Of a DNA stretch of 64,000 nt, positions 3,631 to 15,707 are shown piece by piece. Where the stretch lies: NCBI RefSeq assembly GCF_002213425.1, contig NZ_NJGV01000008.1:1-64000 (forward strand), in the 5' to 3' direction. The notes beneath the pieces are model-generated. The model searched no databases. It saw only the letters and a list, made by a program, of their open reading frames with translations, and was not told the origin of the DNA. The DNA is from Herbaspirillum aquaticum (GTDB lineage: Bacteria > Pseudomonadota > Gammaproteobacteria > Burkholderiales > Burkholderiaceae_D). The translations under genes and the position numbers were made by a program. Positions within the stretch are counted from its first letter, which is position 1. Every line of letters begins with the position of its first letter.

Positions 3631-3957
3631 ATGCACAAGAAATTAAACAAGTTTTCCCCTGAGGTACGAGAGCGTGCGGTGCGCTTGGTGCGTGAGCAGC
3701 GGGATGAGCATTCCTCCATGTGGTCTGCGGTCCAAACGATTGCGCCGATGATCGGCTGTACGCCTCAGACGCTGCTGGACTGGGTCAAACGCACCGAGGT
3801 CGATAGCGGCGAGCGGGATGGCGTCAGCACGGCCGAGCGTGAGCGTATCAAGGCACTGGAGCGCGAGGTCAAGGAATTGCGTCGTGCCAACGAGATCCTC
3901 AAGACCGCGAGCGCTTTTTTCGCGCAGGCGGAGCTCGACCGCAAACTGAAGTCGTAA
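3631..3957 (+). CDS. IS3-family transposase OrfA (helix-turn-helix subunit)
   Basis: This 108-residue protein matches IS3 OrfA: a helix-turn-helix region (about 10-55, including a [10 protein letters not shown] recognition helix) followed by a leucine-zipper-like coiled coil (about 65-90, [20 protein letters not shown]). It binds the IS ends and provides dimerisation. Near the 3' end the codons GCT TTT TTC (heptamer T TTT TTC at 3915-3921) form a classical slippery site. A -1 shift there enters the orfB frame, which is open from before 3942, giving the OrfAB fusion that is normally the active transposase. Confidence 0.92.
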
Positions 3958-4013
3958 ATACCTATATCGATCGCTACCGGGATACCCACGGGGTCGAGCC
4001 GATCTGCAAGGTA

Positions 4014-4862
4014 TTGCAGGTTGCCCCGTCAGCATATCGACGTTATGCAGCAAGGCAGCGCAATCCTCAATTGTGCTGTGCTCGTAGCAAGCGTGATGCG
4101 GTACTGCGAGTTGAAATCAGCCGGGTGTGGCACGCCAACATGCGTGTGTACGGTGCCGACAAGGTATGGCGACAGCTGAATCGTGAGGGCGTATCTATCG
4201 CACGTTGTACGGTAGAGCGGTTGATGCGCCAGCAAGGGCTTCAGGGAGCCCGGCGTGGTAAGCAACTTCGCACCACGCGTTCTGATCCGAAGGCAGCCTG
4301 CCCGTTGGACCGGGTAAATCGCCAGTTCAAGGCTGATCGCCCCAACCAGCTTTGGGTATCCGACTTTACCTACGTATCGACCTGGCAAGGCTGGCTGTAT
4401 GTGGCCTTCGTCATCGACGTGTTTGCCCGTCGCATCGTTGGCTGGCGTGTCAGCAACAGCATGACGACGGACTTCGTGCTAGATGCGCTGGAGCAGGCGC
4501 TCTATGCTCGCCAGCCCGAAGGCAACGGCAGCTTAATCCATCATTCCGACAGGGGATCGCAATATGTCGGTATTCGCTACAGTGAACGTCTAGGCGAGGC
4601 GGGTATTGCGCCATCGGTCGGCAGCCGTGGCGACAGCTACGATAACGCCTTGGCCGAAACCATCAATGGCCTGTACAAGGCTGAATTGATTCATCGCCGT
4701 GGCCCTTGGAAAAACAGGGAATCCGTCGAGCTCGCCACGCTCGAATGGGTGGCTTGGTTCAATCATCATCGACTGCTTGAATCCATCGGCTATATCCCTC
4801 CGGCAGAAGCTGAGGCAAACTACTACAGCCGGTTCGCCAGCAATGCTGCGGTGTCGGCATAA
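4014..4862 (+). CDS. IS3-family transposase OrfB (DDE integrase domain)
   Basis: Catalytic part of the IS3 transposase. The first ATG is at 4014, but the same frame is open upstream of 3942 (continuing [20 protein letters not shown]), so it is probably made as an OrfAB fusion by -1 frameshifting. The rve core is visible: the first Asp in QLWVSDFTYV, the second in HHSDRGSQY, and the last Glu in DNALAETINGLYKAELI. Length and motif spacing are normal and no internal stop is seen. It is bounded on the right by the terminal repeat at 4891-4901. Confidence 0.93.
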   Translation: MQVAPSAYRRYAARQRNPQLCCARSKRDAVLRVEISRVWHANMRVYGADKVWRQLNREGVSIARCTVERLMRQQGLQGARRGKQLRTTRSDPKAACPLDRVNRQFKADRPNQLWVSDFTYVSTWQGWLYVAFVIDVFARRIVGWRVSNSMTTDFVLDALEQALYARQPEGNGSLIHHSDRGSQYVGIRYSERLGEAGIAPSVGSRGDSYDNALAETINGLYKAELIHRRGPWKNRESVELATLEWVAWFNHHRLLESIGYIPPAEAEANYYSRFASNAAVSA

Positions 4863-4901: not shown

Positions 4902-5291
4902 GCTCCATGTTGTACCGAACAATACTCCTTACCAAAATCAAAGTCAACAATTTGGAACAACGCGGAACAACGGAGGATTTGCGACTTTATGTCACTCCCG
5001 ACCAGATACAAAGACACTAGGACTTCCTTAAATAACGTCCAAACCATGATATTTCTCGAAAGAAATCTCCAGCCATCTCTTTGGAACTCGTAACGAGCCC
5101 AAGTCGATACCCAAATATCATGCTCATAGTCAGGAAGGCAAAAGGACAAACTCAATGCAGCGCAGCTCGATAGAAGGCGCTAGAGCTGCAGCCGCGAAAC
5201 CGAGACTTGCCGTCACCCTGGCTCAACTTCCTCCAGGTACAAGCGCTCCTTTGTTCTGACCAACCGCACTTACTTTTTAATCAATATTCCG
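4902..5291. other. Gene-poor stretch between the IS and the unknown operon
   Basis: No convincing gene. A minus-strand open frame covers 4823-5155, but it runs into the IS end and has no recognisable ribosome-binding site or domain. It could at most be the remains of a gene cut by the IS. The last 40 bases are AT-rich and probably include the promoter of the operon beginning at 5360. Confidence 0.4.
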
Positions 5292-5321
5292 ATCCCCCAT
5301 GGCAGCAATGCCATGGGGGAT
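5292..5321. terminator. Perfect 13-bp hairpin upstream of the unknown operon
   Basis: Arms ATCCCCCATGGCA and TGCCATGGGGGAT enclose a GCAA loop, followed on the plus strand by TTCTATTT. It lies 38 bp before the first gene of the plus-strand operon, so it could be the terminator of something upstream, an attenuator in the leader, or a phage-style terminator insulating the operon. Confidence 0.7.
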
Positions 5322-5359
5322 TTCTATTTCCAGTCTGACTTTTTTAATCGGAGAAAAGT

Positions 5360-5941
5360 ATGTCCAAAGCAAAATCCATCGTGCCACTCGCAGAGCAAGC
5401 ACAGCCAACTACCACCGAAGAGGCTGATACGCAATCATATTGGCTACTCAAAGCCTCGACTGCCGCAAAAGTCGGCAAGTTCGGTAAGGGGGCAATTGCC
5501 TACGCAGTAACGACAGACAGCGATCGCCTCACTCTACACATCCAGATCACAGGCAACGAAGGAGGCGGATACTTCAGCCGTGAAAAGGTGCCATTCGACG
5601 CGATTGAGGCTTGTCTTGCGGGGACTGAGACCGAGCAGGCATTTCCCTCCAGCACATTCAAACATGCTTTTTCCGGTCGCAGTAGCAACAATTCCGGGTT
5701 CATGGTCGCGATCCTCCGCGCCGAAGGACTTATCAGCGTTAGCGCCACGCCGGGGACTAAGTACGAAAAAAGCGGCGACTGGCAGGCCTGGAAAGCGTCG
5801 ATGCTCGCGGAGCCTGGCTCATTGATCACCGAACAGAACGCACAAGAGCAACTGCCATCGAATGCTGATAGCAGTTCTCCTTCCAGAGGCACTCTCCGCC
5901 TACCAAAAAAGAAAGCGACAGCGAAGGACGAAGCCTCGTGA
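5360..5941 (+). CDS. Hypothetical protein, first gene of the radical-SAM/NTase operon
   Basis: A 193-residue protein I do not recognise. The ATG follows a good ribosome-binding site (GGAGAAAAGT). It is soluble, without signal peptide or membrane helix. Residues about 25-130 look like a compact folded domain containing ITGNEGGGYFSREKVPFDAI and a serine-rich stretch; the tail (about 145-193) is polar, low-complexity and Lys-rich (LPKKKATAKDE), which might bind nucleic acid. Its TGA overlaps the GTG start of the next gene by four bases, so the two are translationally coupled and probably function together. No function is assigned. Confidence 0.75.
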   Translation: MSKAKSIVPLAEQAQPTTTEEADTQSYWLLKASTAAKVGKFGKGAIAYAVTTDSDRLTLHIQITGNEGGGYFSREKVPFDAIEACLAGTETEQAFPSSTFKHAFSGRSSNNSGFMVAILRAEGLISVSATPGTKYEKSGDWQAWKASMLAEPGSLITEQNAQEQLPSNADSSSPSRGTLRLPKKKATAKDEAS

Positions 5942-7113
5942 GCTCCGTTGCCTCCAACTTCACCATCATCGTCAACTGGAAGGAGCGCGGCTTTGGATGC
6001 AGAAAATCCTGTGGATACTGCAACTGGCGCGACTCAGCCCTGCTGCCCCATGGAGTTCAATCCAAGGAGGCCATTGACGCTTTCGTACGCCAGTGCCGAA
6101 AGAGTTTCATTACGATCAGCGGTGGCGCAGACCCACTCTACGATTTCGAGGTGAATCACGCCAAGTTGCTGTCGATGATAAGGATCATCCAGACTCATCG
6201 GCTGAAAGTACGACTGATCACAAGGGAGATCGAAGAGGTCGGGAAACTGAACGGCTTTGTGGATTACGTATCGATCTCGCTAGAGCCCGACGTCTTGGAA
6301 AAGATTCCAGCATACGAGGCACAGTGGCATGGCATGGACGTCGAGTTCTCGCTCGTGCTGCCGCCGCTCCCCACTTCCGGCATCGTGCAGCTCTTGCCTC
6401 AATACGAAAGCCTGTGGCGGCGACTAGGGAGGCGTCTGGTCCTACGTGAAAATCTGAACTCTATCTTCCATCTGGATTTCACCCGACTCTCCTTCCGGCA
6501 TTCAGGCATCGTATTTGTGCCTAGGTCGGTTTGCCTACAAGGTCGCTATCTCGCGAAAGCGGATCACAACGGCCACGACATCATCCAGGACAATGCAGAA
6601 CTACTGCGATTTCTACTACGACGGCCGGATACCTTCCTGTTTGGCGGTGTAGCAAAGCACCTTGCAGCACCGTATCTTTATCCAGAATACGGTGATATCG
6701 ACCTGCTCGTAACCTCCCAGCAGCCGCAAGCAGTGTTGGAGCAGGAATTTGGGTATTTGTTCAAGCAGACCTCACCTGAGTCCGCATATCCGCGCTACTG
6801 CTTAGGAAGATCGAAGAAAGCCGCGAAGCCTATTCAGTTGATCCGGGTAGCATCAGAAGAAGATGCCAAACGCTTCATTTTTAGCGGACAGTATGACGTT
6901 GACCGCATAGGTTTCAACAAACACCGCTTTTTCTGCGATCCGACGCTTAATGCGGACTCTGTTCTTCAAGCTCTCAAAGCGAAGCATGCAACGCGCTGGC
7001 ACGAGAGCAGGGACATGCAGCTATTCCACGAGAGCCGCCCTCAAATCGAACAGCGTCACAAGATGAAGCTGATTCGTCGCGGCTTCCACATTACCGAACA
7101 ACCCGAACTTTGA
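5938..7113 (+). CDS. Radical-SAM-like / nucleotidyltransferase two-domain protein
   Basis: A 391-residue protein that appears to join two enzyme folds. Near the N-terminus C21, C25 and C28 form a CxxxCxxC set (GCRKSCGYCNW), the radical-SAM iron-sulfur signature, and FITISGGADPLYD resembles the GGE-type SAM-binding strand. From about residue 220 a nucleotidyltransferase pattern follows: FGGVAKHLAA (GG at 236-237), GDIDLLV (D253 and D255 as metal ligands), then IQLIRV and QYDVDRIGF (about 319), where a third acidic residue of this fold is expected. The start is GTG, overlapping the preceding stop, with AAGGA upstream. Both domain calls come from motif reading only. The substrate is unknown; RNA, a nucleotide or a small peptide are all possible. 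Confidence 0.65.
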   Translation: MSSVASNFTIIVNWKERGFGCRKSCGYCNWRDSALLPHGVQSKEAIDAFVRQCRKSFITISGGADPLYDFEVNHAKLLSMIRIIQTHRLKVRLITREIEEVGKLNGFVDYVSISLEPDVLEKIPAYEAQWHGMDVEFSLVLPPLPTSGIVQLLPQYESLWRRLGRRLVLRENLNSIFHLDFTRLSFRHSGIVFVPRSVCLQGRYLAKADHNGHDIIQDNAELLRFLLRRPDTFLFGGVAKHLAAPYLYPEYGDIDLLVTSQQPQAVLEQEFGYLFKQTSPESAYPRYCLGRSKKAAKPIQLIRVASEEDAKRFIFSGQYDVDRIGFNKHRFFCDPTLNADSVLQALKAKHATRWHESRDMQLFHESRPQIEQRHKMKLIRRGFHITEQPEL

Positions 7114-7120
7114 GGAAAAA

Positions 7121-7849
7121 ATGCAGGCCACAATCTACGTTTCAGAGGAGGCAATGGCGACCGCCATTGCCATCAAAGACCTTTCCCACTATGACCGGAT
7201 CACCCTATCTGATGATCCGAACACCGACTTATCCCAATCACCGGGATACTTCCTGAAGAATGCAAACAAGCTCAAATTGGCGACACTTCCAACCAACCAT
7301 CGCGTAATAGCCTCATTAGCGCCTGGCCGTGCCGATAATATTGCGGATGTCAGCATGCCAGTTCATCTTCGCGGATGCATATTTGAGAGAGCCCCTAACC
7401 TACCGCCCCAATATGCCCAGATCATGACGTACTGGTCAGGGGAGGCCGTCAATCTCGATGACAGCCGCGCAGTTCACTTCCAATCCCCATTGAACGAATA
7501 CATGGTCGAGCTGCGGCCAGCGCAAGGCAGAGTCGAAGATGCTTACAGCGAAATGGCCGCCTGCGACAGACTCCTCTCTGAGGGTATCGTGGTGGCCATT
7601 ACCGGTTTGATGCAACTCTGCAACTCAGCGCTTCCAACCGATTTCATTGAAATCGTTCTTCCTGTAGATCTGGACATTGCCGGTATTGAGCCAGATGCGT
7701 TCCGATCGTCTCGTTCCTATAACGTGGATGATGAACAGCTCGAAAAGGTCTACCTCCGCATCGTGGATATTATGCGATCGCCGAATCCTGATGCGATCTA
7801 CATTGACTTGATCCGGAATGAGCTGATTGATTACGGCTATGTTTACTGA
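7121..7849 (+). CDS. Hypothetical protein, third gene of the radical-SAM/NTase operon
   Basis: A 242-residue protein I do not recognise. The ATG is eight bases after the previous stop and preceded by GAGGAAAAA, so it belongs to the same operon. It is acidic and soluble, without transmembrane segments. The N-terminus has YDRITLSDDPNTD and the central part DSRAVHFQSPLNEYMVELRP. The C-terminal half (about 145-242) is rich in acidic and hydrophobic residues and has no obvious metal site. It could be a substrate, partner or immunity-type protein for the two-domain enzyme. Its end overlaps by a few bases the convergent regulator gene on the other strand. Confidence 0.72.
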   Translation: MQATIYVSEEAMATAIAIKDLSHYDRITLSDDPNTDLSQSPGYFLKNANKLKLATLPTNHRVIASLAPGRADNIADVSMPVHLRGCIFERAPNLPPQYAQIMTYWSGEAVNLDDSRAVHFQSPLNEYMVELRPAQGRVEDAYSEMAACDRLLSEGIVVAITGLMQLCNSALPTDFIEIVLPVDLDIAGIEPDAFRSSRSYNVDDEQLEKVYLRIVDIMRSPNPDAIYIDLIRNELIDYGYVY

Positions 7850-8193
7850 TCACTGAGCATCAACACCTTTCCGCCAGACTCTAACAAAGTCACCACTGGC
7901 GCACTTCCACGCCCCCTATCTGCCTTTACCAGCCCCTCCTCGACCAGACGCGTCAGGGCTTCTCCAGCCACCTCACGAGTAACGCCAAACCTAGCCAACG
8001 TGCTGCCATTGACAACAACGGTGGCTGAACCCCTTAGGCTCGCCAAACTATGAATCGCTAGCGCGTAATGCAGTGTCCGTCCTGGCAGGCAGGCTGCACG
8101 GGCAAGCCAGTCAGATCGTAGAGTACGAAAGAGTGAAATGCGAAATTTCGTATGGACGGATGCTTGCCTTTTGAAGCATTGTGTTTCGGCCAT
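7843..8193 (-). CDS. Winged-helix DNA-binding protein
   Basis: A 116-residue protein with a helix-turn-helix and wing in its second half: VNGSTLARFGVTREVAGEAL (about 60-80) followed by the helix RLVEEGLVKADRGRGSAPVV (about 82-101), a typical 'EEGLV' recognition helix plus wing. The start is supported by a strong ribosome-binding site (AAAGAGGAACTCACATG on the minus strand). It is probably the regulator of the mobile element or of the convergent three-gene operon, whose last codons it overlaps. A 13-bp palindrome just upstream of the ribosome-binding site could be its own operator. Confidence 0.72.
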   Translation of the reverse strand: MAETQCFKRQASVHTKFRISLFRTLRSDWLARAACLPGRTLHYALAIHSLASLRGSATVVVNGSTLARFGVTREVAGEALTRLVEEGLVKADRGRGSAPVVTLLESGGKVLMLSDQ

Positions 8194-8208
8194 GTGAGTT
8201 CCTCTTTG

Positions 8209-8221
8209 GATTTACTAAATC
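8209..8221. promoter_or_regulatory. Palindrome GATTTAcTAAATC upstream of the winged-helix gene
   Basis: A perfect 6+1+6 palindrome 15-28 bp before the start codon of the winged-helix gene, overlapping its leader. Its position suggests an autoregulatory operator; this is inference. Confidence 0.4.
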
Positions 8222-8375
8222 ACTGGACTGTTTATAGAGTTGAGAAAAAATCCAGTTCTCGCTTGAGCTATTGAATAAAGGGCAGCCTTCCGCACCTCTG
8301 GATTTGCAACAGGGTGAATTAGGAAAATAGGGGGAGGAGCACGGAAATCAGGACCAATTCATCAAGGCGGCAAGG

Positions 8376-8414
8376 TAAATCCCCCAAACGGCTTAAACCG
8401 CTTGGGGGAATTTA
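8376..8414. terminator. Long hairpin terminator before the integrase 3' end
   Basis: Arms TAAATCCCCCAA and TTGGGGGaATTTA, with inner CGG/CCG pairing around a CTTAAA loop, followed on the plus strand by ACTTTTTTT. The T tract serves plus-strand transcription, i.e. read-through from the unknown operon; on the minus strand it could also cap the integrase message, whose stop is at 8421. Confidence 0.75.
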
Positions 8415-8420
8415 CTTTTT

Positions 8421-9608
8421 TTATTGTGCTTCTTGCTGCGCCTCCTTTACTGCCTCGTTAATTACGCTTGCAATGGTTTCACTCACCTCCAGTAGACCGC
8501 TTGCAGTGAGGTGCGCGTATCGTTGCGTAACCTGAGGTGTCGAATGCCCGAGCAAATTCTGGACCTCAAACAGCGACGCGCCAGAGTTAATTGCAAGACT
8601 AGCGTTCGTGTGTCGCAGGTCATGAATACGGATATGGTCAACGCCCGCTGCAGCCAAAATGCGACTCAGCGCCTTCCGTGGATTATTAAGGGGCTTTTGC
8701 GGATCGCGTCCAGGGAAGACCCATTGCGATGTCCCTCGGCTCGGTTGCGCAGCTAAGAGTGCTTTGGCATCTTCGCTCAAACCGACATAGCGGCCCCGGC
8801 CGCTCTTGGTCTCTGGAAGAAACCACTGCCCGCGCTCCAGGTCAACATCAACCCACTTTGCGCGCAATGCCTCCTGCCGACGAGTGCCGGTCAGCAACAG
8901 CAACTTCAACGCCGCTACTGCAGTTTTATTATGTTCCAGCTCCATTGCTGCGTAGATTTTTCCAATTTCACCAGGCGTGAGAAAGCGCTGATTTTGGCTG
9001 TTCTCGCGAAATAGCCGAGTACTGGCTGCGGGGCTAACGGTCAACCGATTCCACTCGATGGCCTTCCGGAACACTGCCTTCAACAGAGCCAGGTGGCGAT
9101 TTGCCGTCGCCGCACTGTGACTGGACCGAATCTCTGCATGGTGAAGCTGGATATCGCGCACGCTGATGTCACAGAGGCGTCGCTCGCCAAATTTGGGAAG
9201 AAGGTGGCAGCGGAATTTTGACTCGTCGTCCTTAAAGCTTTTCTTGGCCTGACGGGCGAACGGCAAATATTCATCGTTCACAAATGTGGCGAAGCTCGGC
9301 ATCGCTTTTAAGCGATCGTTGTCTTCAAGTGGATCACCGCCACGATCAAGAATCGCGCGCATCTCCAGAGCCTTCGCCCGAGCTTCTGCCAGTTCGATAG
9401 CGGGAAATGTGCCGATGCGGGCAAAGCGTTTAATACCTGCGGCGGTCTGGTAACGCATGCCAAAGGTTTTAGTGCCCGTCTTGCCAACGGTCATCCTCAA
9501 ACCTCGGACTTGTGTGTCGGAATATTCCGCAGAACTGGAGGGGGACGATGCATCGTGATTCGGCAGGGATGCCAGTGAGCGGTTCGTGAAGTTGAATTTA
9601 CGGGACAC
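8421..9608 (-). CDS. Tyrosine recombinase / phage integrase (P4-type)
   Basis: A 395-residue site-specific recombinase. It has an N-terminal DUF4102-like arm-binding region (about 1-95), a SAM-like core-binding domain (about 100-190) and the catalytic domain (about 205-375). Catalytic residues are visible: R243/R244 in LLTGTRRQEAL, the Lys in PETKSGRGRYVGL, H329 and R332 in HDLRHT, H355 in LLGHSTPQVTQ and nucleophile Y364 in QRYAHL. Length and motifs are normal, so it is probably functional. P4-type integrases usually target tRNA 3' ends, consistent with the tRNA-Phe remnant at 13586-13630. An att-like core also lies about 215 bp upstream of its start. Confidence 0.95.
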   Translation of the reverse strand: MSRKFNFTNRSLASLPNHDASSPSSSAEYSDTQVRGLRMTVGKTGTKTFGMRYQTAAGIKRFARIGTFPAIELAEARAKALEMRAILDRGGDPLEDNDRLKAMPSFATFVNDEYLPFARQAKKSFKDDESKFRCHLLPKFGERRLCDISVRDIQLHHAEIRSSHSAATANRHLALLKAVFRKAIEWNRLTVSPAASTRLFRENSQNQRFLTPGEIGKIYAAMELEHNKTAVAALKLLLLTGTRRQEALRAKWVDVDLERGQWFLPETKSGRGRYVGLSEDAKALLAAQPSRGTSQWVFPGRDPQKPLNNPRKALSRILAAAGVDHIRIHDLRHTNASLAINSGASLFEVQNLLGHSTPQVTQRYAHLTASGLLEVSETIASVINEAVKEAQQEAQ

Positions 9609-9982
9609 GGTGGGCCTCTAGATGAACGTGAAAAAATTAAGCCGCCCCCCCGGTAAATGACCGTGGAGCGGCTTGGACTGAGCAGGCGGGCCGTAGCAAA
9701 CGCCTATGGAAGTGTTGTGAACTCGTCCTTTTTCAAAAATGCAAACTTAATGTTTAACTTTAAATATGAATCTCAAGTATCTGATACATCACAACAAATC
9801 TCGAAAAAAAGTTGAAAGTCGTTAAAATCCTTGCGTCGCATATCGATTGCCGATTTTGGATTGCACAAGAGGCCACGCCCGGCGCGGGCCATCGGCGGCC
9901 TCATCCAAGACATCAAATTCGGCGGGCAAGGCCTTGCGGCAAGTTGACGGTTTTCTCTGCAACTGCCGAAGCTGCCTTGGCT
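9609..9982. other. Integrase upstream region with hairpin and AT-rich segment
   Basis: No gene. Contains a hairpin (9639-9674: AAGCCGC ... GCGGCTT with inner CGGT/ACCG), an AT-rich segment (about 9720-9830) likely to hold the integrase promoter, and at 9824-9852 a sequence resembling the tRNA-Phe anticodon/T-arm region. Confidence 0.5.
9824..9852 (+). repeat. att-like core, partial copy of the tRNA-Phe 3' half
   Basis: AAAATCCTTGCGTCG (9824-9838) matches AAAATCCTTGTGTCG of the tRNA-Phe remnant at 13589 in 14 of 15 positions. After a 4-5 base variable gap both continue TCGATT and then CCG. This extended similarity is more than expected by chance and its location beside the integrase suggests a degenerate attachment site. 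Confidence 0.5.
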
Positions 9983-10270
9983 TCAATACTCGCTTGGCAG
10001 AAGTAAGGTCGTGGACGAACGATCCGCCTCAGTAATAACCCACAGTCGATGCTCTCCAATCTTGTACGCAGACAAGATCCGCCCGCCCAGTTGCAGAGCA
10101 CTTTCGTTAGCCTGTATGTCGTCGCTTGAAATATCGCCCCAGTCACCCCGTCGATGGCGAGCTAGGTATTGCAGCGGTGAATGATTCACAGAACGCAGGA
10201 GCGCGTCTGCACCTTGGGTACTCAAGAGCATCCCCAAATCGAAACGAAAGATGTTTGTCGCGTTGTTCAT
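9983..10270 (-). CDS. Small plasmid/ICE-type conserved protein
   Basis: A 95-residue soluble protein starting at the ATG at 10270, preceded by GAAGGAAACAT. It resembles a small family common on plasmids and integrative elements, recognisable by LARHRRGDWGDISSDDIQAN in the middle and ITEADRSSTTLLLP at the end. I recall members being annotated inconsistently, sometimes as restriction-system parts, without support. Function unknown. It sits between the integrase and the 44-residue membrane protein, separated from the latter by a strong terminator, so it probably has its own promoter. Confidence 0.75.
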   Translation of the reverse strand: MNNATNIFRFDLGMLLSTQGADALLRSVNHSPLQYLARHRRGDWGDISSDDIQANESALQLGGRILSAYKIGEHRLWVITEADRSSTTLLLPSEY

Positions 10271-10291
10271 ATGTTTCCTTCGCAAATGCAA

Positions 10292-10322
10292 AAGGCCCCC
10301 GTGAATCAATCACGGGGGCCTT
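10292..10322 (-). terminator. Perfect 13-bp hairpin terminator
   Basis: Arms AAGGCCCCCGTGA and TCACGGGGGCCTT with a five-base loop; on the minus strand it is followed by TTTGCATTTG. It lies immediately after the 44-residue membrane protein gene and before the next minus-strand start. Confidence 0.75.
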
Positions 10323-10351
10323 CAAAATTTTCTATGGGGGTAGGTGGCAAC

Positions 10352-10486
10352 CTATTTCAGCGAGATCGAAATATCGATCTTCCGGTTGACCAGCACATAG
10401 ACGATCGTCGGAACGATGATTAGGCCCAACGGACCTACCGCAGCAGGTAGCGCAACCCGTGCGACATTTGCAAAAACTGAAAGCAT
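10352..10486 (-). CDS. Small hydrophobic membrane protein (44 residues)
   Basis: Reading the minus strand from the ATG at 10486 gives a 44-residue protein with an excellent ribosome-binding site (AAAGGA, 8 bases upstream) and a TAG stop at 10352. About residues 8-33 form one hydrophobic segment (ALPAAVGPLGLIIVPTIVYV), followed by a short cationic/polar tail (NRKIDISISLK). It is isolated between two strong hairpins (10515-10544 and 10292-10322), i.e. a separately transcribed mini-gene. It might be a phage-type coat or assembly peptide, a holin-like peptide or a type I toxin; there is no evidence to choose among them. Confidence 0.6.
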   Translation of the reverse strand: MLSVFANVARVALPAAVGPLGLIIVPTIVYVLVNRKIDISISLK

Positions 10487-10514
10487 AGAAATCCTTTAGA
10501 TCAATAAAATAAAA

Positions 10515-10544
10515 TACCCACGAGGCCCAATGACCTAGTGGGTA
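10515..10544 (-). terminator. Hairpin with U-rich tail (minus strand)
   Basis: TACCCAC/GTGGGTA arms with inner AGG/CCT pairing, followed on the minus strand by TTTTATTTTATTG: a canonical intrinsic terminator. It ends transcription from the DUF927 gene side; the 170 bp between that gene's stop and this hairpin hold no gene I can see. Confidence 0.8.
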
Positions 10545-10719
10545 TAAGGATGGCCGTAGACCATCAAAATGATATTTCTATGATCTGACGAGCTTACTCA
10601 AGGCGGAGAATTTCCCTGCATCTCCGTCATTTCTCTCGCTAGAAACTCTTGACTAATAAGGGATGCCCCCTGTTTTCCCTAATTTCACATATGAAATCTT
10701 TGAGAACTAGAGGGAAGCG

Positions 10720-12702
10720 TTAAATTGAATCACGATCCTTTTGAGTTTTTTGCGGCCAATCATCTTCACGGGTTAATTGATCTGCCTCACTGTCGGGCTC
10801 AGCCTCATTCAAAGCTTGATTTTCAGAAGGTGCACTCTCCTCCATCGCCGAGTTGATTTCTTCGTTGCTCAATAAACGCTTTGCATTGACCGCGATGAAT
10901 TGGACGTTTTTGTACTCAAGAAACTTAGAAGTGAATCGGTACGTGTTCTTTCCAGCTTCACATTGAAGCATCCCCTTCGCCTTCAAATATTTAACTGCTT
11001 CCTTTTCTGAAATATCTCCGCATGCCTGTCGAAACTGATCTTTCGTAAAAAGGATGAGATCAGTTTTCCAGATTGCCGCCAAACGGATTGGAACATCGGC
11101 TTTTACTCCGCCCTGTTTAACCCAAGGAATGTAGTGCAAAATCTGGCCCATATTTTGAATGACGTAATCACGAAGAGACTCGACTGCTTGCTCTCCAAGG
11201 CTGAGAGGAGGCAACGCTTCAAGCCATGCAGACACGGTCCGAGAGACAGCCCGACGGATATCCTCCTCCGAGCAGGGAAACACTGCCGTCTGGGACGCCA
11301 TAATTCCTGCTGCCTGAATGAACGCAAAACGGCGAAGTGCCCGCACATGGGCGGCATCCAGACGGTACTTCAATGCCGCGGCGTCTTTCAGCTCTTTGTG
11401 AAACGTGTCAGTCTCCTGATGTAAAAACTGCCGAAGCTTCGATGCGAAGATAAAGTGATCGATGACGGCCTGTGCAAATGCAGGAGCAGCTACCCCATAG
11501 ATCTCACCACATCGCATTTTAAGGTTGGCAATCATCCCGGCATAATCGCCCAAGTGTTCTTCTTCCCCTGTCGCCAACGATGCCACAGGAATATCAAGCG
11601 CACGGATGAGCTCACCGGTCTTCACCGATCGCTTGCTCGCGCCTTCTACTTTCTCGCGCATCGATACCTCTCCTGACGACAAGATACCCAGAGCCCATGT
11701 ACGCTGCTCCCGACGTTGTCCCGAATCCGTCATACGAGTTCGTCCAGCACCCGCCGTCGCGTTGTACACCGAGATGATAGTTTCGGCACTGCTACCGAGC
11801 TCATCGACCGCCGCCAACATGCCGGAGTGCTCCGACAATAGGAGCTCGACACCGTTGGCCGTCGTGTTCCAGCGTTCAACGTTACTCGCGGACGGCACCT
11901 GAGGATCTCCAGCTTTGCCAAGAATGGACATTGCAAGTTGCAGCGCAGTCGTTTTCCCCGAAGACGATTGCCCGTAAAGATGGGCAATGATCACATCGAC
12001 GCCACAAATTCCCGTCAACATGCTGGCAAACGCAAAGCTCATCGAAAAAACGAAAAGGTCATTCTGGTGGAACGGATGAACCAGCTCCTGCCAGGCGGCC
12101 AGATCACCCGACGCGTGATATCCGGCAGCAGCCTTGTTTCGATAATGAGGTTGGTAACGGACCTCACCAACTGCGTCCTTGGAGGCATCGTACAAAACTG
12201 CCTGACAAAGTTCGGCCTCGGCCTTCAATCGATGAGGAGCAGGAGAAAGACAACTCGATGGCATCAGGAAGTGAAGCACGTCGGCAACTTCTGCGCGGTT
12301 CCATGCGTGAAAGCCAAGTTCAGGGAAAGTGAAAGACCTTTCGATGGCAGGTTGCGCTACGCACATCGACAAATAGTGGGCAAAAAGAGGGACCGCTCGC
12401 GGAAGGATAAGCAGTCCTTCCGATGCAAGGACTGAAAATTGTTCCGTCCCGCTTAAAAGCGTCGCATATGGAATCAACTGGGATCGAACAACACCGTCGT
12501 GATCGCGCCATGCAACTTCGATCGACCAGTTCTTGCCGTTAAGTTCTCGGGTGACAGTTTCTACCCAGGCGGGTACCGAGGTGAGCTGCACTTCGTCCGA
12601 CTTTTTTTCGCCATCTCGATGAAGAAAAACACCGTCTCCCGAAACGTGGTATTCACTTGGAATATTTTTCCAAGGCACTGCCTGCGTCGCTTCGACACTC
12701 AT
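10720..12702 (-). CDS. DUF927-family helicase/ATPase-like protein
   Basis: A 660-residue protein taking the ATG at 12702 (GGGAATGTGAA upstream); an in-frame ATG at 12777 would run through a hairpin and is less likely. The central region (about 130-420) resembles DUF927, a RecA-like ATPase of phage and plasmid elements, with P-loop GQSSSGKTTAL near 244 and the acidic AAVDELG near 300 as probable Walker B. The C-terminal part (about 560-640) resembles a winged helix, and the last 40 residues are highly acidic. It is probably the replication or mobilisation ATPase of the integrated element. Confidence 0.8.
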   Translation of the reverse strand: MSVEATQAVPWKNIPSEYHVSGDGVFLHRDGEKKSDEVQLTSVPAWVETVTRELNGKNWSIEVAWRDHDGVVRSQLIPYATLLSGTEQFSVLASEGLLILPRAVPLFAHYLSMCVAQPAIERSFTFPELGFHAWNRAEVADVLHFLMPSSCLSPAPHRLKAEAELCQAVLYDASKDAVGEVRYQPHYRNKAAAGYHASGDLAAWQELVHPFHQNDLFVFSMSFAFASMLTGICGVDVIIAHLYGQSSSGKTTALQLAMSILGKAGDPQVPSASNVERWNTTANGVELLLSEHSGMLAAVDELGSSAETIISVYNATAGAGRTRMTDSGQRREQRTWALGILSSGEVSMREKVEGASKRSVKTGELIRALDIPVASLATGEEEHLGDYAGMIANLKMRCGEIYGVAAPAFAQAVIDHFIFASKLRQFLHQETDTFHKELKDAAALKYRLDAAHVRALRRFAFIQAAGIMASQTAVFPCSEEDIRRAVSRTVSAWLEALPPLSLGEQAVESLRDYVIQNMGQILHYIPWVKQGGVKADVPIRLAAIWKTDLILFTKDQFRQACGDISEKEAVKYLKAKGMLQCEAGKNTYRFTSKFLEYKNVQFIAVNAKRLLSNEEINSAMEESAPSENQALNEAEPDSEADQLTREDDWPQKTQKDRDSI

Positions 12703-12731
12703 TTCACATTCCCAAAATAATAGTTGGAGGT

Positions 12732-12758
12732 GCCCCGATGCCAGAGAGGCATCGGGGC
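12732..12758. terminator. 11-bp perfect hairpin in the DUF927 leader
   Basis: Arms GCCCCGATGCC and GGCATCGGGGC with a five-base loop, 30 bp upstream of the DUF927 start codon on the minus strand. No T tract follows on either strand, so it may act as an attenuator, a protein-binding site or a structural element rather than a simple terminator. Confidence 0.5.
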
Positions 12759-12759
12759 T

Positions 12760-13585
12760 TAAGAAACGGCAGCGCAATTGCAGCCCCGTTCAGGAAATTT
12801 CGGACCGTAGTCGCTACGGCGAAATTGAGCACATGCGTTGCATGTGGACGGACAAGGCCTGGGACCTGTGGGAAGCACTCAAACGTGCAGAGCCATGTGG
12901 CCTAAGCTCACATGCGTCGGAATTGGATTCGTACACAGTCAGACGGACGTGTACGTGGAACCTAACAAATTCGGAAACTGCCTCGTGGAAGATGAGAGGC
13001 AAGCACAGCGGAATGAAACCGCTAATCGGGCGATCTTTGAGTAAGATCATGGAGCGTCGCTGTCCAGCTCGACTGGATCCAGCAACGTACGCAATTGATG
13101 CGTTCGATAAAGTGAAACTAAAAGCCGCATGCAGGTTAACGTGAGTTTCAATGGACGTCAACACCCTTTTTCAGGGTTACTAAAAGAGAACGAGTGCGCC
13201 GCGTTGCATCAGAATGCCTGCATCGAGCATCCAAATCCGCCCGGATGGGAAGCTGCATTTACATTCCGCCGATACAATTTTCAATCACAAAGCGATTTTC
13301 AAGTCCCATGAAAATCGGGGGATCGACGTTAAATTGAACGCCAAAAACTCCGCCCTTTTTCGAAAAATCTACGGTTTTTCTACTGCACTTGAAGCAATTT
13401 TTTTGCTATTTTTTCTCGAATAGAATTTAAGCTGTCTAAGCAGCGATAGGTTCTGACGCTCCCTTATTAAGTAGTGCTTGATCCTTGAAAATGTAAGAGA
13501 ACCCCCTAATCCCCCAAATTATTAAGCTCACTTCATAGAGCCATCACCTCTTGCTAGAACGGTACTCAATGGCCCGAAGAGGGTC
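12760..13585. other. Stretch without a clear gene, AT-rich towards the right
   Basis: Overlapping open frames exist on both strands at 12814-13164, the most protein-like being a plus-strand frame reading ISDRSRYGEIEHMRCMWTDK, but none has a ribosome-binding site or recognisable domain. From about 13320 to 13560 the sequence is AT-rich with poly-T and poly-A runs, compatible with promoters or an origin-like region at the edge of the element. Nothing is asserted. Confidence 0.4.
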
Positions 13586-13630
13586 TTGAAAATCCTTGTG
13601 TCGGTGGTTCGATTCCGCCCCGGGCCACCA
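13586..13630 (+). pseudogene. 3' half of tRNA-Phe (attachment-site remnant)
   Basis: TTGAAAATCC (anticodon loop with GAA), variable loop, T-arm GGTTCGATTCC, 3' acceptor strand CCGGGCC, discriminator A and encoded CCA reproduce the 3' half of a betaproteobacterial tRNA-Phe. The 5' bases that should pair with the acceptor strand (near 13555) do not, and the anticodon stem is unpaired on its 5' side, so this is not a complete tRNA. It is what integration of an element into a tRNA 3' end leaves at the distal boundary; the intact tRNA-Phe would be expected left of the window. Confidence 0.75.
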
Positions 13631-13643
13631 AAAATACTTCAAG

Positions 13644-13862: not shown

Positions 13863-15305
13863 ATGGCAAAAGCAATTAAAAGCAAGTCAGCTGTTCCGGA
13901 CAACAAAATCAAACTGCGCTCAATTAGTTTTGCTCAACCGCCCTTCCGCAAACTCGGCTCGCTGGAAATAAAGATTGCCCCGCGCCTAACGTTAATTGCC
14001 GGGCGCAATGGGGTTGGAAAATCGACGATATTGGCATTAATCGCGGGTGGCTCTGGCCTGACAAGAGGGCTCAAAAACCATACCTATTTTGCAAACCTAC
14101 CGAACGCGAATGTTGATGAAATTCTCAAACTGTCTTTTGAGAGAGACTATGTGCGTGGAGAAGAGGAAAAACCGTCTGCCCTTCTAACATATGAAAAGGA
14201 AGGCACCCAGTTCTACAAAAAATGTAATGTATCAGGCTCAGAAGAGCGTCTCCGCGTAGTACCTCGGAATGAACCCAAGGGCCCACTCTCTGTTCACGGC
14301 ACCTCCATTCCAGCAGATGGAAAAGTGCCAATCCCCACAGTCTATTTAGGCATGACCCGCGTACTGCCAATTGGCGAAGCCGACCCCGCCTCATTTGAGC
14401 GTCGCCAAGCAGAAATGGACCAAGAGGATTACGACTTTTACCTGGACTTCACGAATCAAGTCATTGGCACAGGAATTCCGTCAGGAAACGCGAATGTTGT
14501 CGCCCAATCAGTTAAAGGGACAAAGAAGCGAGCAATCTACCCAGAGTATCAAGGCTATGACAGTACGAATGTTTCACTAGGACAGGACTCCCTCAGTTCC
14601 ATAGCCACTGCGCTCGCATCGTTCAAGAGGCTTCAACGCACACTTGGTGACGCTTACGAAGGAGGCCTTCTAATCATCGACGAAATTGATGCAGGCTTCC
14701 ATCCTCATGCCCAAATTCAGCTTTTAGACCAATTAAAGAGCAGAGCACGCCAACTGCATATCCAAGTCATTGCGACGACTCACTCGCTGACCATGCTTGA
14801 ACACGCCCACAGCGAAATAAACAATAAGAAATACAAAGGCTCTCCCCAAGACCATATTGCGTATCTCAAAGGTGGATTGCCGATTCAATTGCTAGATGCA
14901 AAAGAATTTGCGGCCATTCATAGCGATATGCATCTGCGGCTACCGACTGCAACAAAACAAACTCAGCCTGTTGTGAAGATTTATGTAGAGGATGAGGAAG
15001 CTGCTTTATTTTTGAACGCGATTCTCACTCCTGCTCGGAAGAAATCAATCAATCGGACGGCGAATGCAAAATTGAAAATTATAGCTGCCAAAGTCGGATG
15101 CTCAAATCTTGTTGGACTGCTAGGAGCTGATGACTATTTCCAGTCTGTGGTAATGGTTCTTGATGCAGACACCTCTGGTGTCAGTGCGAAGGGCGCGACA
15201 AATGTTGTCAGGCTTCCGAAGGATCCACACAACCCTCCGAAACAATCTCCCGAGGTCATCCTTAAGGTAATGTGTGAAAAGCTCTGCGCAGATGTCAATG
15301 CATAA
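13863..15305 (+). CDS. OLD-like ATPase with TOPRIM-type C-terminus
   Basis: A 480-residue protein. An ABC/SMC-like AAA ATPase domain carries Walker A AGRNGVGKST (46-55), a signature-like SLGQDSLSS, Walker B LLIIDEIDAGFHP (269-281) and a switch His in IATTHS. The C-terminal part (about 365-460) has YVEDEEA (E376-E379) and VLDADTSG (D434, D436), the acidic pattern of a TOPRIM nuclease. This architecture is that of OLD-family nucleases, which include anti-phage proteins (lone OLD, GajA of Gabija, retron-linked ATPases). It lies just beyond the tRNA-Phe att remnant and has lower GC than the core, fitting cargo. Nuclease activity is inferred, not shown. Confidence 0.75.
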   Translation: MAKAIKSKSAVPDNKIKLRSISFAQPPFRKLGSLEIKIAPRLTLIAGRNGVGKSTILALIAGGSGLTRGLKNHTYFANLPNANVDEILKLSFERDYVRGEEEKPSALLTYEKEGTQFYKKCNVSGSEERLRVVPRNEPKGPLSVHGTSIPADGKVPIPTVYLGMTRVLPIGEADPASFERRQAEMDQEDYDFYLDFTNQVIGTGIPSGNANVVAQSVKGTKKRAIYPEYQGYDSTNVSLGQDSLSSIATALASFKRLQRTLGDAYEGGLLIIDEIDAGFHPHAQIQLLDQLKSRARQLHIQVIATTHSLTMLEHAHSEINNKKYKGSPQDHIAYLKGGLPIQLLDAKEFAAIHSDMHLRLPTATKQTQPVVKIYVEDEEAALFLNAILTPARKKSINRTANAKLKIIAAKVGCSNLVGLLGADDYFQSVVMVLDADTSGVSAKGATNVVRLPKDPHNPPKQSPEVILKVMCEKLCADVNA

Positions 15306-15338
15306 TCGCCGGGTCAGAACGGAAGACAAGGTCTTGTA

Positions 15339-15707
15339 ATGCGGGCTATCGCTTGGGAAAGATTGGAAGCTTGGGTCCGCAAGGAAAACGGCACAAGTCC
15401 CAAAAAGTTGATCACTCGCGATACGCAGCTCTACAACGACTTGGATGTCGATGGCGATGAAGCGGAAGATTTCATGGAGCACTTCTTTGAAGAATTCTCC
15501 ATCGACTACGGGGACTACAATTTTGATCATTATTTTGTCCCCGAAGGCTTCAGCCCGCTCGAGATTTTCCTGCTCATGATCTCGAAGAAAAAGCGGGCTT
15601 CCTACGACAGACCACCCATCACCCTCGGCATGCTTTACCAGGCAGCCCTTGATGGCCGATGGGATTGTGCCCGCCTGGATTCACTGTCATCACTTTCGCA
15701 GGCTTGA
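15339..15707 (+). CDS. DUF1493 family protein
   Basis: A 122-residue acidic protein with the features of DUF1493: an acyl-carrier-like opening LITRDTQLYNDLDVDGDEAEDF (pattern shown in part: LYNDLDVDGDEAEDF, about 30-45), FSIDYGDYNFDHYF in the middle and PPITLGMLYQAALDGRWD near the end. The family's function is not established. It starts 33 bp after the OLD-like gene on the same strand, so the pair may be one transcript; it might be an inhibitor or immunity partner, or an unrelated neighbour. Last gene before the GC-rich core sequence begins. Confidence 0.75.
   Translation: MRAIAWERLEAWVRKENGTSPKKLITRDTQLYNDLDVDGDEAEDFMEHFFEEFSIDYGDYNFDHYFVPEGFSPLEIFLLMISKKKRASYDRPPITLGMLYQAALDGRWDCARLDSLSSLSQA

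Follow-up and report, generated by a model that had tools for sequence, protein, structure and literature searches.

The locus described here raises the question of what a radical S-adenosylmethionine (radical-SAM) enzyme fused to a nucleotidyltransferase (NTase) does on a mobile element, next to two proteins of no recognised family. The window (the whole stretch analyzed, 64,000 nucleotides of Herbaspirillum aquaticum contig NZ_NJGV01000008.1) contains three consecutive plus-strand genes, here called g1, g2 and g3; g2 encodes the fusion, and the coordinates are collected in Table 1. A sequence-only reading of this DNA had described the genes as tightly coupled, with a GTGA overlap followed by an 8-bp gap, and as preceded by a hairpin. 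The coupling and the overlap stand, but the gap between g2 and g3 is 7 bases (7114-7120). The hairpin was recovered with a folding energy of -27.8 kcal/mol (z -5.7), which none of 200 shuffled sequences equaled.

Both domains of g2, and their fusion, are supported, and the protein is regarded as a probable two-headed enzyme whose folds were obtained by prediction only. The radical-SAM half spans about residues 5-217 (C21/C25/C28 and the motif SGGADP), and the NTase half spans about residues 219-391 (FGG...DID, with D253/D255). The CxxxCxxC cysteines and the two aspartates, already pointed out in the earlier reading, are present and invariant across 40 aligned g2 relatives; they are also invariant in a six-sequence alignment that includes two relatives from jumbo-phage contigs (26% identity). 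Each half was matched by profiles and by a fold search with the predicted model. The Pfam Radical_SAM family matches 40 of 40 members, and the window's own g2 scores 21.6, below the cut-off of 29.5. The structure prediction that the earlier reading had proposed as a check returned both a radical-SAM barrel and an NTase fold: the front half matches viperin, QueE, MoaA and BioB, and the back half matches NTases, with CCA-adding enzymes among the nearest. A sequence search of the Protein Data Bank (PDB) with g2 gave no usable match. Because g2 has 254 homologues at E 0.001 and the trio recurs, the trio was taken to be real rather than a chance arrangement.

That recurrence, likewise proposed as a check, was found as adjacency of g1, g2 and g3 across a sample of 392 genomes of the same family as the source. 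Matches to g2 or a part of it were present in 24 genomes, to g3 in 22 and to g1 in 24. At 22 of 24 places g3 adjoins g2 (the two exceptions are matches of 24 and 47 residues), and g2 adjoins g3 at 22 of 26 (of the other four g2 genes, three are fragmentary and one lies at a contig edge). For g1, adjacency to g2 was observed at 23 of 26 places, the exceptions being one full-length g1 and two weak or partial matches; g2 adjoins g1 at 23 of 26. The solitary full-length g1 (G155:C15:203191-203775, locus L117) lies in a genome with no match to g2 or g3. When sorted by hand, the 26 g2 places comprised 13 full fusions, 9 with the NTase only and 4 fragments. Gene content was compared among 22 trio loci (L010, L012, L017, L019, L073 and the G367 place were outside this comparison). 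The integrase cluster was present in 20 of them, g1 in 22, g2 or its NTase in 22, g3 in 20 and a replication-type protein in 17; the last belonged to one of three clusters (8, 5 and 4 loci), with members typed as DUF927, D5_N/DUF5906 and DUF3987. The trio looks like a core module of an island family. At L017, a 3.7-kb remnant (7286-11026) consists of two tRNA-Phe repeats enclosing a truncated g2 and a g3.

At eight places examined closely, the middle gene corresponds to about model positions 218-386 alone and is still flanked by g1 and g3; among all nine NTase-only places, one is broken and one lies at a contig edge. In a tree of 24 NTase rows, seven NTase-only sequences (the near copy L083 having been removed) formed one group with support of 100/99, drawn within the fused and phage rows of a tree that is unrooted and has several open branches. 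Two relatives from large viral contigs, L023 and L024, were omitted because their NTase part was too divergent. This topology suggests that the radical-SAM half may have been lost once, in one island clade.

Carriage on an integrase element was borne out as well: the trio lies near a tyrosine integrase, and repeats that copy the 3' end of a tRNA mark the integrative island. The window shows only the right copy of the repeat; the contig begins at window base 1, and the left end lies outside it. The intact tRNA-Phe of the same genome is on contig C13 (763-838, minus strand). Two repeats with the trio between them were located 15.6 kb apart in L074 (taken as the Herbaspirillum huttiense chromosome of L013) and 13.9 kb apart in L006 (Pseudoduganella danionis). 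A tRNA-Phe-type repeat was not found at several trio loci, and a tRNA-Asn lies near the trio in L011 and L068, so other integration sites are likely in use. A search of the 392 genomes with the window's integrase, which scored the best candidates of each genome only, gave 22 hits at a threshold of E 1e-70. Of these, 17 have g2 within 12 kb, among them the 16 best, which include the window's own integrase; around the other five, no g1, g2 or g3 was detected by BLAST in the stretches available, two of which were shorter than 10 kb. The idea that the trio is mere cargo, one defence system among others, is weakened by this link. The reverse link is looser and argues against a strict one: such an integrase was within 12 kb at 17 of 26 g2 places. 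Ten proteins near the trio, picked by eye in six loci, were scanned with PADLOC models, and nine matched, a sample that gives no rate. The matches included type I restriction proteins (L009, L057) and PtuA-type and SIR2-type proteins (L018); only a methyltransferase of L006 is placed between two repeats, the rest being merely near the trio. The tenth protein (L013, 3579-5831), which lies inside the island and joins a Schlafen AlbA_2 domain to an NB-ARC/AAA-like ATPase, had no PADLOC match at E 1e-5.

A hairpin similar to that of the window was found about 40 nucleotides upstream of g1 in 10 of 18 island loci, the folds being judged by eye; the count includes the near copies L059 and L060 and leaves out a shorter hairpin in L018. 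In L006, L013, L015, L016, L058, L061 and L063, there was no comparable hairpin or something else stood in its place. The stem sequence varies among groups of island loci and the position is constant, which fits a terminator or a leader hairpin. No named Rfam family was found at the window's hairpin, which may serve as a leader.

With a g2 alignment as the query, relatives of g2 also turned up at seven viral loci, which fall into about five kinds; a single g2 protein retrieved nothing from either contig collection. In three viral kinds g3 is directly downstream of g2, and the g3 profile matched at E 8e-86 (L020/L021), 5e-72 (L022) and 2e-22 (L096/L097). In the large contigs L023 and L024 the g2 relative is distant, and g3 was not detected. 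No g1 was present in the seven viral stretches examined, and a g1 alignment run against the viral contigs likewise gave none. L020 encodes a prohead protease; its g2 is immediately preceded, on the other strand, by the gene for Acb1, which counters the cyclic-oligonucleotide-based antiphage signaling system (CBASS); L021 carries the identical gene set at this spot. In L097, g3 is followed by a gene for a phage RNA polymerase; L022 encodes a family A DNA polymerase, and in L023 a Stealth_CR2 gene adjoins the g2 relative. The Acb1-like protein of L020 (6626-7894, minus strand, divergent from g2; 422 amino acids) has a Pfam match over residues 5-150 only, which leaves its long C-terminal part unexplained. 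A tblastn search of 50,697 phage records yielded no match to g1, g2, g3 or the L097, L023 and L024 relatives (the L020 and L022 relatives excluded). Among 72,556 plasmid records there was no g2 match and one g1 relative, on an Aeromonas plasmid near an integrase and with no annotated g2 or g3. A Fusobacterium phage also encodes a radical-SAM enzyme and an NTase, but in separate genes that are far apart, and was for this reason not considered further.

That the two partners are unrecognised, as first described, holds: Pfam assigned no family to g1 or g3. At E 1, PADLOC models matched none of the window's three proteins, and none of the model libraries scanned describes the fusion or assigns a function to g1 or g3. 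The g1 protein matches phrog_28971 (E 9.6e-10) and had no usable match in a PDB sequence search. A likeness of g3 to G3BP2, its sole PDB sequence match (E 0.014 and 0.12), was not trusted. In two island loci (L011, 10166-10744; L007, 7069-7650), g1 stands downstream of g3; these g1 proteins are strongly diverged (22-29% identity), and the accompanying g2 and g3 stay at 50-55%.

What is new here is the combination of radical-SAM and NTase and its partners, the two folds themselves being known. Radical-SAM and NTase enzymes are each part of antiviral and anti-host biology. Membership of g2 in the viperins was considered, as matches to prokaryotic viperins (pVips) were at first promising; NCBIfam then gave wider matches to NrdG2, KamA and QueE. 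The viperin family NF038283 (cut-off 180 bits) matched five of 40 members, with a best E of 0.0026, and not the window's g2, and in place of the AGGEP of two pVips, g2 has SGG-A/G-DP, which lacks the viperin GGEP. Alignment of the radical-SAM half by hhalign gave a probability of 86.6% against the two pVips paired. With each pVip alone the values were 5.4% and 52.4%, and a further radical-SAM locus from the same genome, taken as a control, gave 48.8%. This result was not used because the pair was favoured by having two sequences and the control open reading frames were crudely picked, some clearly in the wrong frame. KamA and EpmB models matched 30 and 21 of the 40 members (best E 3.1e-6 and 6.3e-5), and KamA shares the SGG-DP motif; however, these scores are weak, neither model matched the window's g2, and g2 has a fused NTase. 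EpmB itself, searched for as a control in 21 genomes, gave no match at E 1e-40.

The NTase half differs from CCA-adding enzymes, FAM46 and the pox poly(A) polymerase in that it measures about 170 residues and lacks additional body domains, is fused to a radical-SAM half and has no conserved third acid at the expected place. Like AbiE, MenT and HepT-MntA, it is an NTase in a small operon on mobile DNA; unlike them, it has no recognised antitoxin or toxin partner, carries the radical-SAM fusion and occurs in viral contigs without g1. With phage satellites and tRNA-integrated islands the element shares an integrase, tRNA-Phe repeats, a primase/helicase-like gene and defence-type genes nearby; we know of no radical-SAM/NTase trio at the core of such elements. 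No system that fuses radical-SAM and NTase is described in those parts of the literature that were covered, which included portions of PMC6591296 and PMC7159879.

The explanation that we tentatively prefer, as possible but somewhat short of probable, is that g2-g3 modifies RNA ends for a mobile element in conflict. The front half of g2 would be a radical-SAM enzyme and the back half a template-independent NTase of the CCA-adding/FAM46-like fold. With g3 choosing the target, the NTase half would extend an RNA end by further nucleotides, with tRNA as the leading candidate; the radical-SAM half would alter the nucleotide or the RNA such that the mark persists or is not read as normal. Since islands without the radical half keep the NTase, g1 and g3, the NTase-g3 pair would be the working core, with radical chemistry as an added power. 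As g1 was seen in the islands and not in the viral contigs, it may control or restrain the pair, behind the hairpin leader. The module would serve the element against phage, rival elements or host defence. We infer the RNA target, the modified-nucleotide product and the conflict role from fold and neighbours, and the chemistry of g2 and the role of g1 are advanced in the same spirit. A main weak point is the doubtful third NTase acid: residue 300, on the next strand where that acid is expected, is Q in 40 of 40 aligned sequences; L023 has D there, L024 has S and five other rows have H. D322, invariant in the 40-sequence alignment, is N in L023. A more specific version, in which a viperin-like half makes a modified nucleotide or modifies RNA, a CCA-adding-like half attaches it to tRNA or other RNA and g3 guides the reaction, with phages and islands sharing this conflict enzyme and one lineage keeping the NTase alone, appears improbable.

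Two rivals are unlikely but deserve some weight. One is that the trio blocks phage and keeps the island in the population as an abortive-infection or toxin-antitoxin system like AbiE/MenT or HepT-MntA: the NTase would be toxic to tRNA or to a host protein and be held back by g1, g3 or both. This would account for the tight operon, the tie of the trio to one integrase family, the defence-type genes close by and the retention of the NTase core without the radical-SAM half. Yet g1 and g3 have no Pfam family, the PADLOC models were silent on all three proteins, the viral stretches carry g2-g3 without g1, and a radical-SAM half is not known from such systems. To be given similar, limited credence is counter-defence or RNA repair, by which g2-g3 would repair or mask tRNA or RNA ends, or make or destroy a nucleotide, thereby letting island or phage DNA that enters a cell escape host immunity. 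The CCA-adding enzymes among the nearest folds agree with it, as do the positions of g2-g3 beside Acb1 in L020 and before the RNA polymerase gene in L097; in T7-like phages, early anti-host genes are located before the RNA polymerase gene. However, the Acb1 neighbour is a single case (L020 and L021 have the same genes), the islands are themselves near defence genes, and there is no known nuclease or immune target. It is distinctly unlikely that the trio takes no part in conflict and instead governs how a satellite-like element is excised, replicated or transferred: the shared core of trio, integrase and DUF927/DUF3987/D5-type protein, together with the g1 relative near a plasmid integrase, speaks for this, but it leaves the need of viral contigs for g2-g3 unexplained, and a radical-SAM enzyme would be an unusual life-cycle gene. 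Very improbable is an ordinary small-molecule enzyme (e.g. for a nucleotide-activated sugar or a surface modification). Radical-SAM enzymes and NTases both occur in sugar and antibiotic pathways, and the Stealth_CR2 neighbour in L023 would suit such a role; against it, that relative is only 24-26% identical, with no g3 found in its stretch, and, among those proteins typed in the core that the islands share, none was recognised as the product of a sugar gene.

Table 1. Features of the trio and its island (window coordinates).
Feature	Coordinates	Strand	Remarks
hairpin	5291..5322	+	14 pairs, T-rich tail, 38 nucleotides upstream of g1 start; terminator-like or leader
g1	5360..5941	+	193 amino acids; no Pfam family; island partner
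g2	5938..7113	+	391 amino acids; GTG start; overlaps g1 stop as GTGA
g3	7121..7849	+	242 amino acids; no Pfam family; constant g2 partner in islands and three viral contig kinds
GntR-like winged-helix protein	7843..8193	-	116 amino acids; PF00392 E 1.4e-5, 25.1 bits, under curated cut-off of 27; convergent with g3
tyrosine integrase of island	8421..9608	-	PF00589 (Phage_integrase) E 7.4e-30
small conserved island protein	9983..10309	-	108 amino acids; in 11 of 22 trio loci, window included
DUF927/Cch-like, putative replicative helicase	10720..12777	-	PF06048 E 7.7e-38; SCCmet_Cch1 E 4.3e-22, below cut-off
right-end attachment repeat	13586..13631	+	46 bp identical to tRNA-Phe 3' end

The GntR-like protein is a possible regulator of the island. 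Immediately to the left of the trio is an IS3-type transposase pair, assigned by sequence (3631-4862), within which Rfam places an ALIL pseudoknot (RF01497, 3912-4028). Just beyond the tRNA-Phe repeat, an AAA_21/AAA_15 ATPase gene is followed by a DUF1493 gene (13863-15707); the ATPase has weak matches to PtuA, AriA and MAD3 models, and the pair is possibly another defence module.

The module is characteristic of a family of integrative islands. As viral contigs have it too, its target may reveal a vulnerability not yet recognised in the conflict between phage and bacterium. Islands that naturally carry the NTase alone can be compared with the fused ones to see what the radical half contributes.
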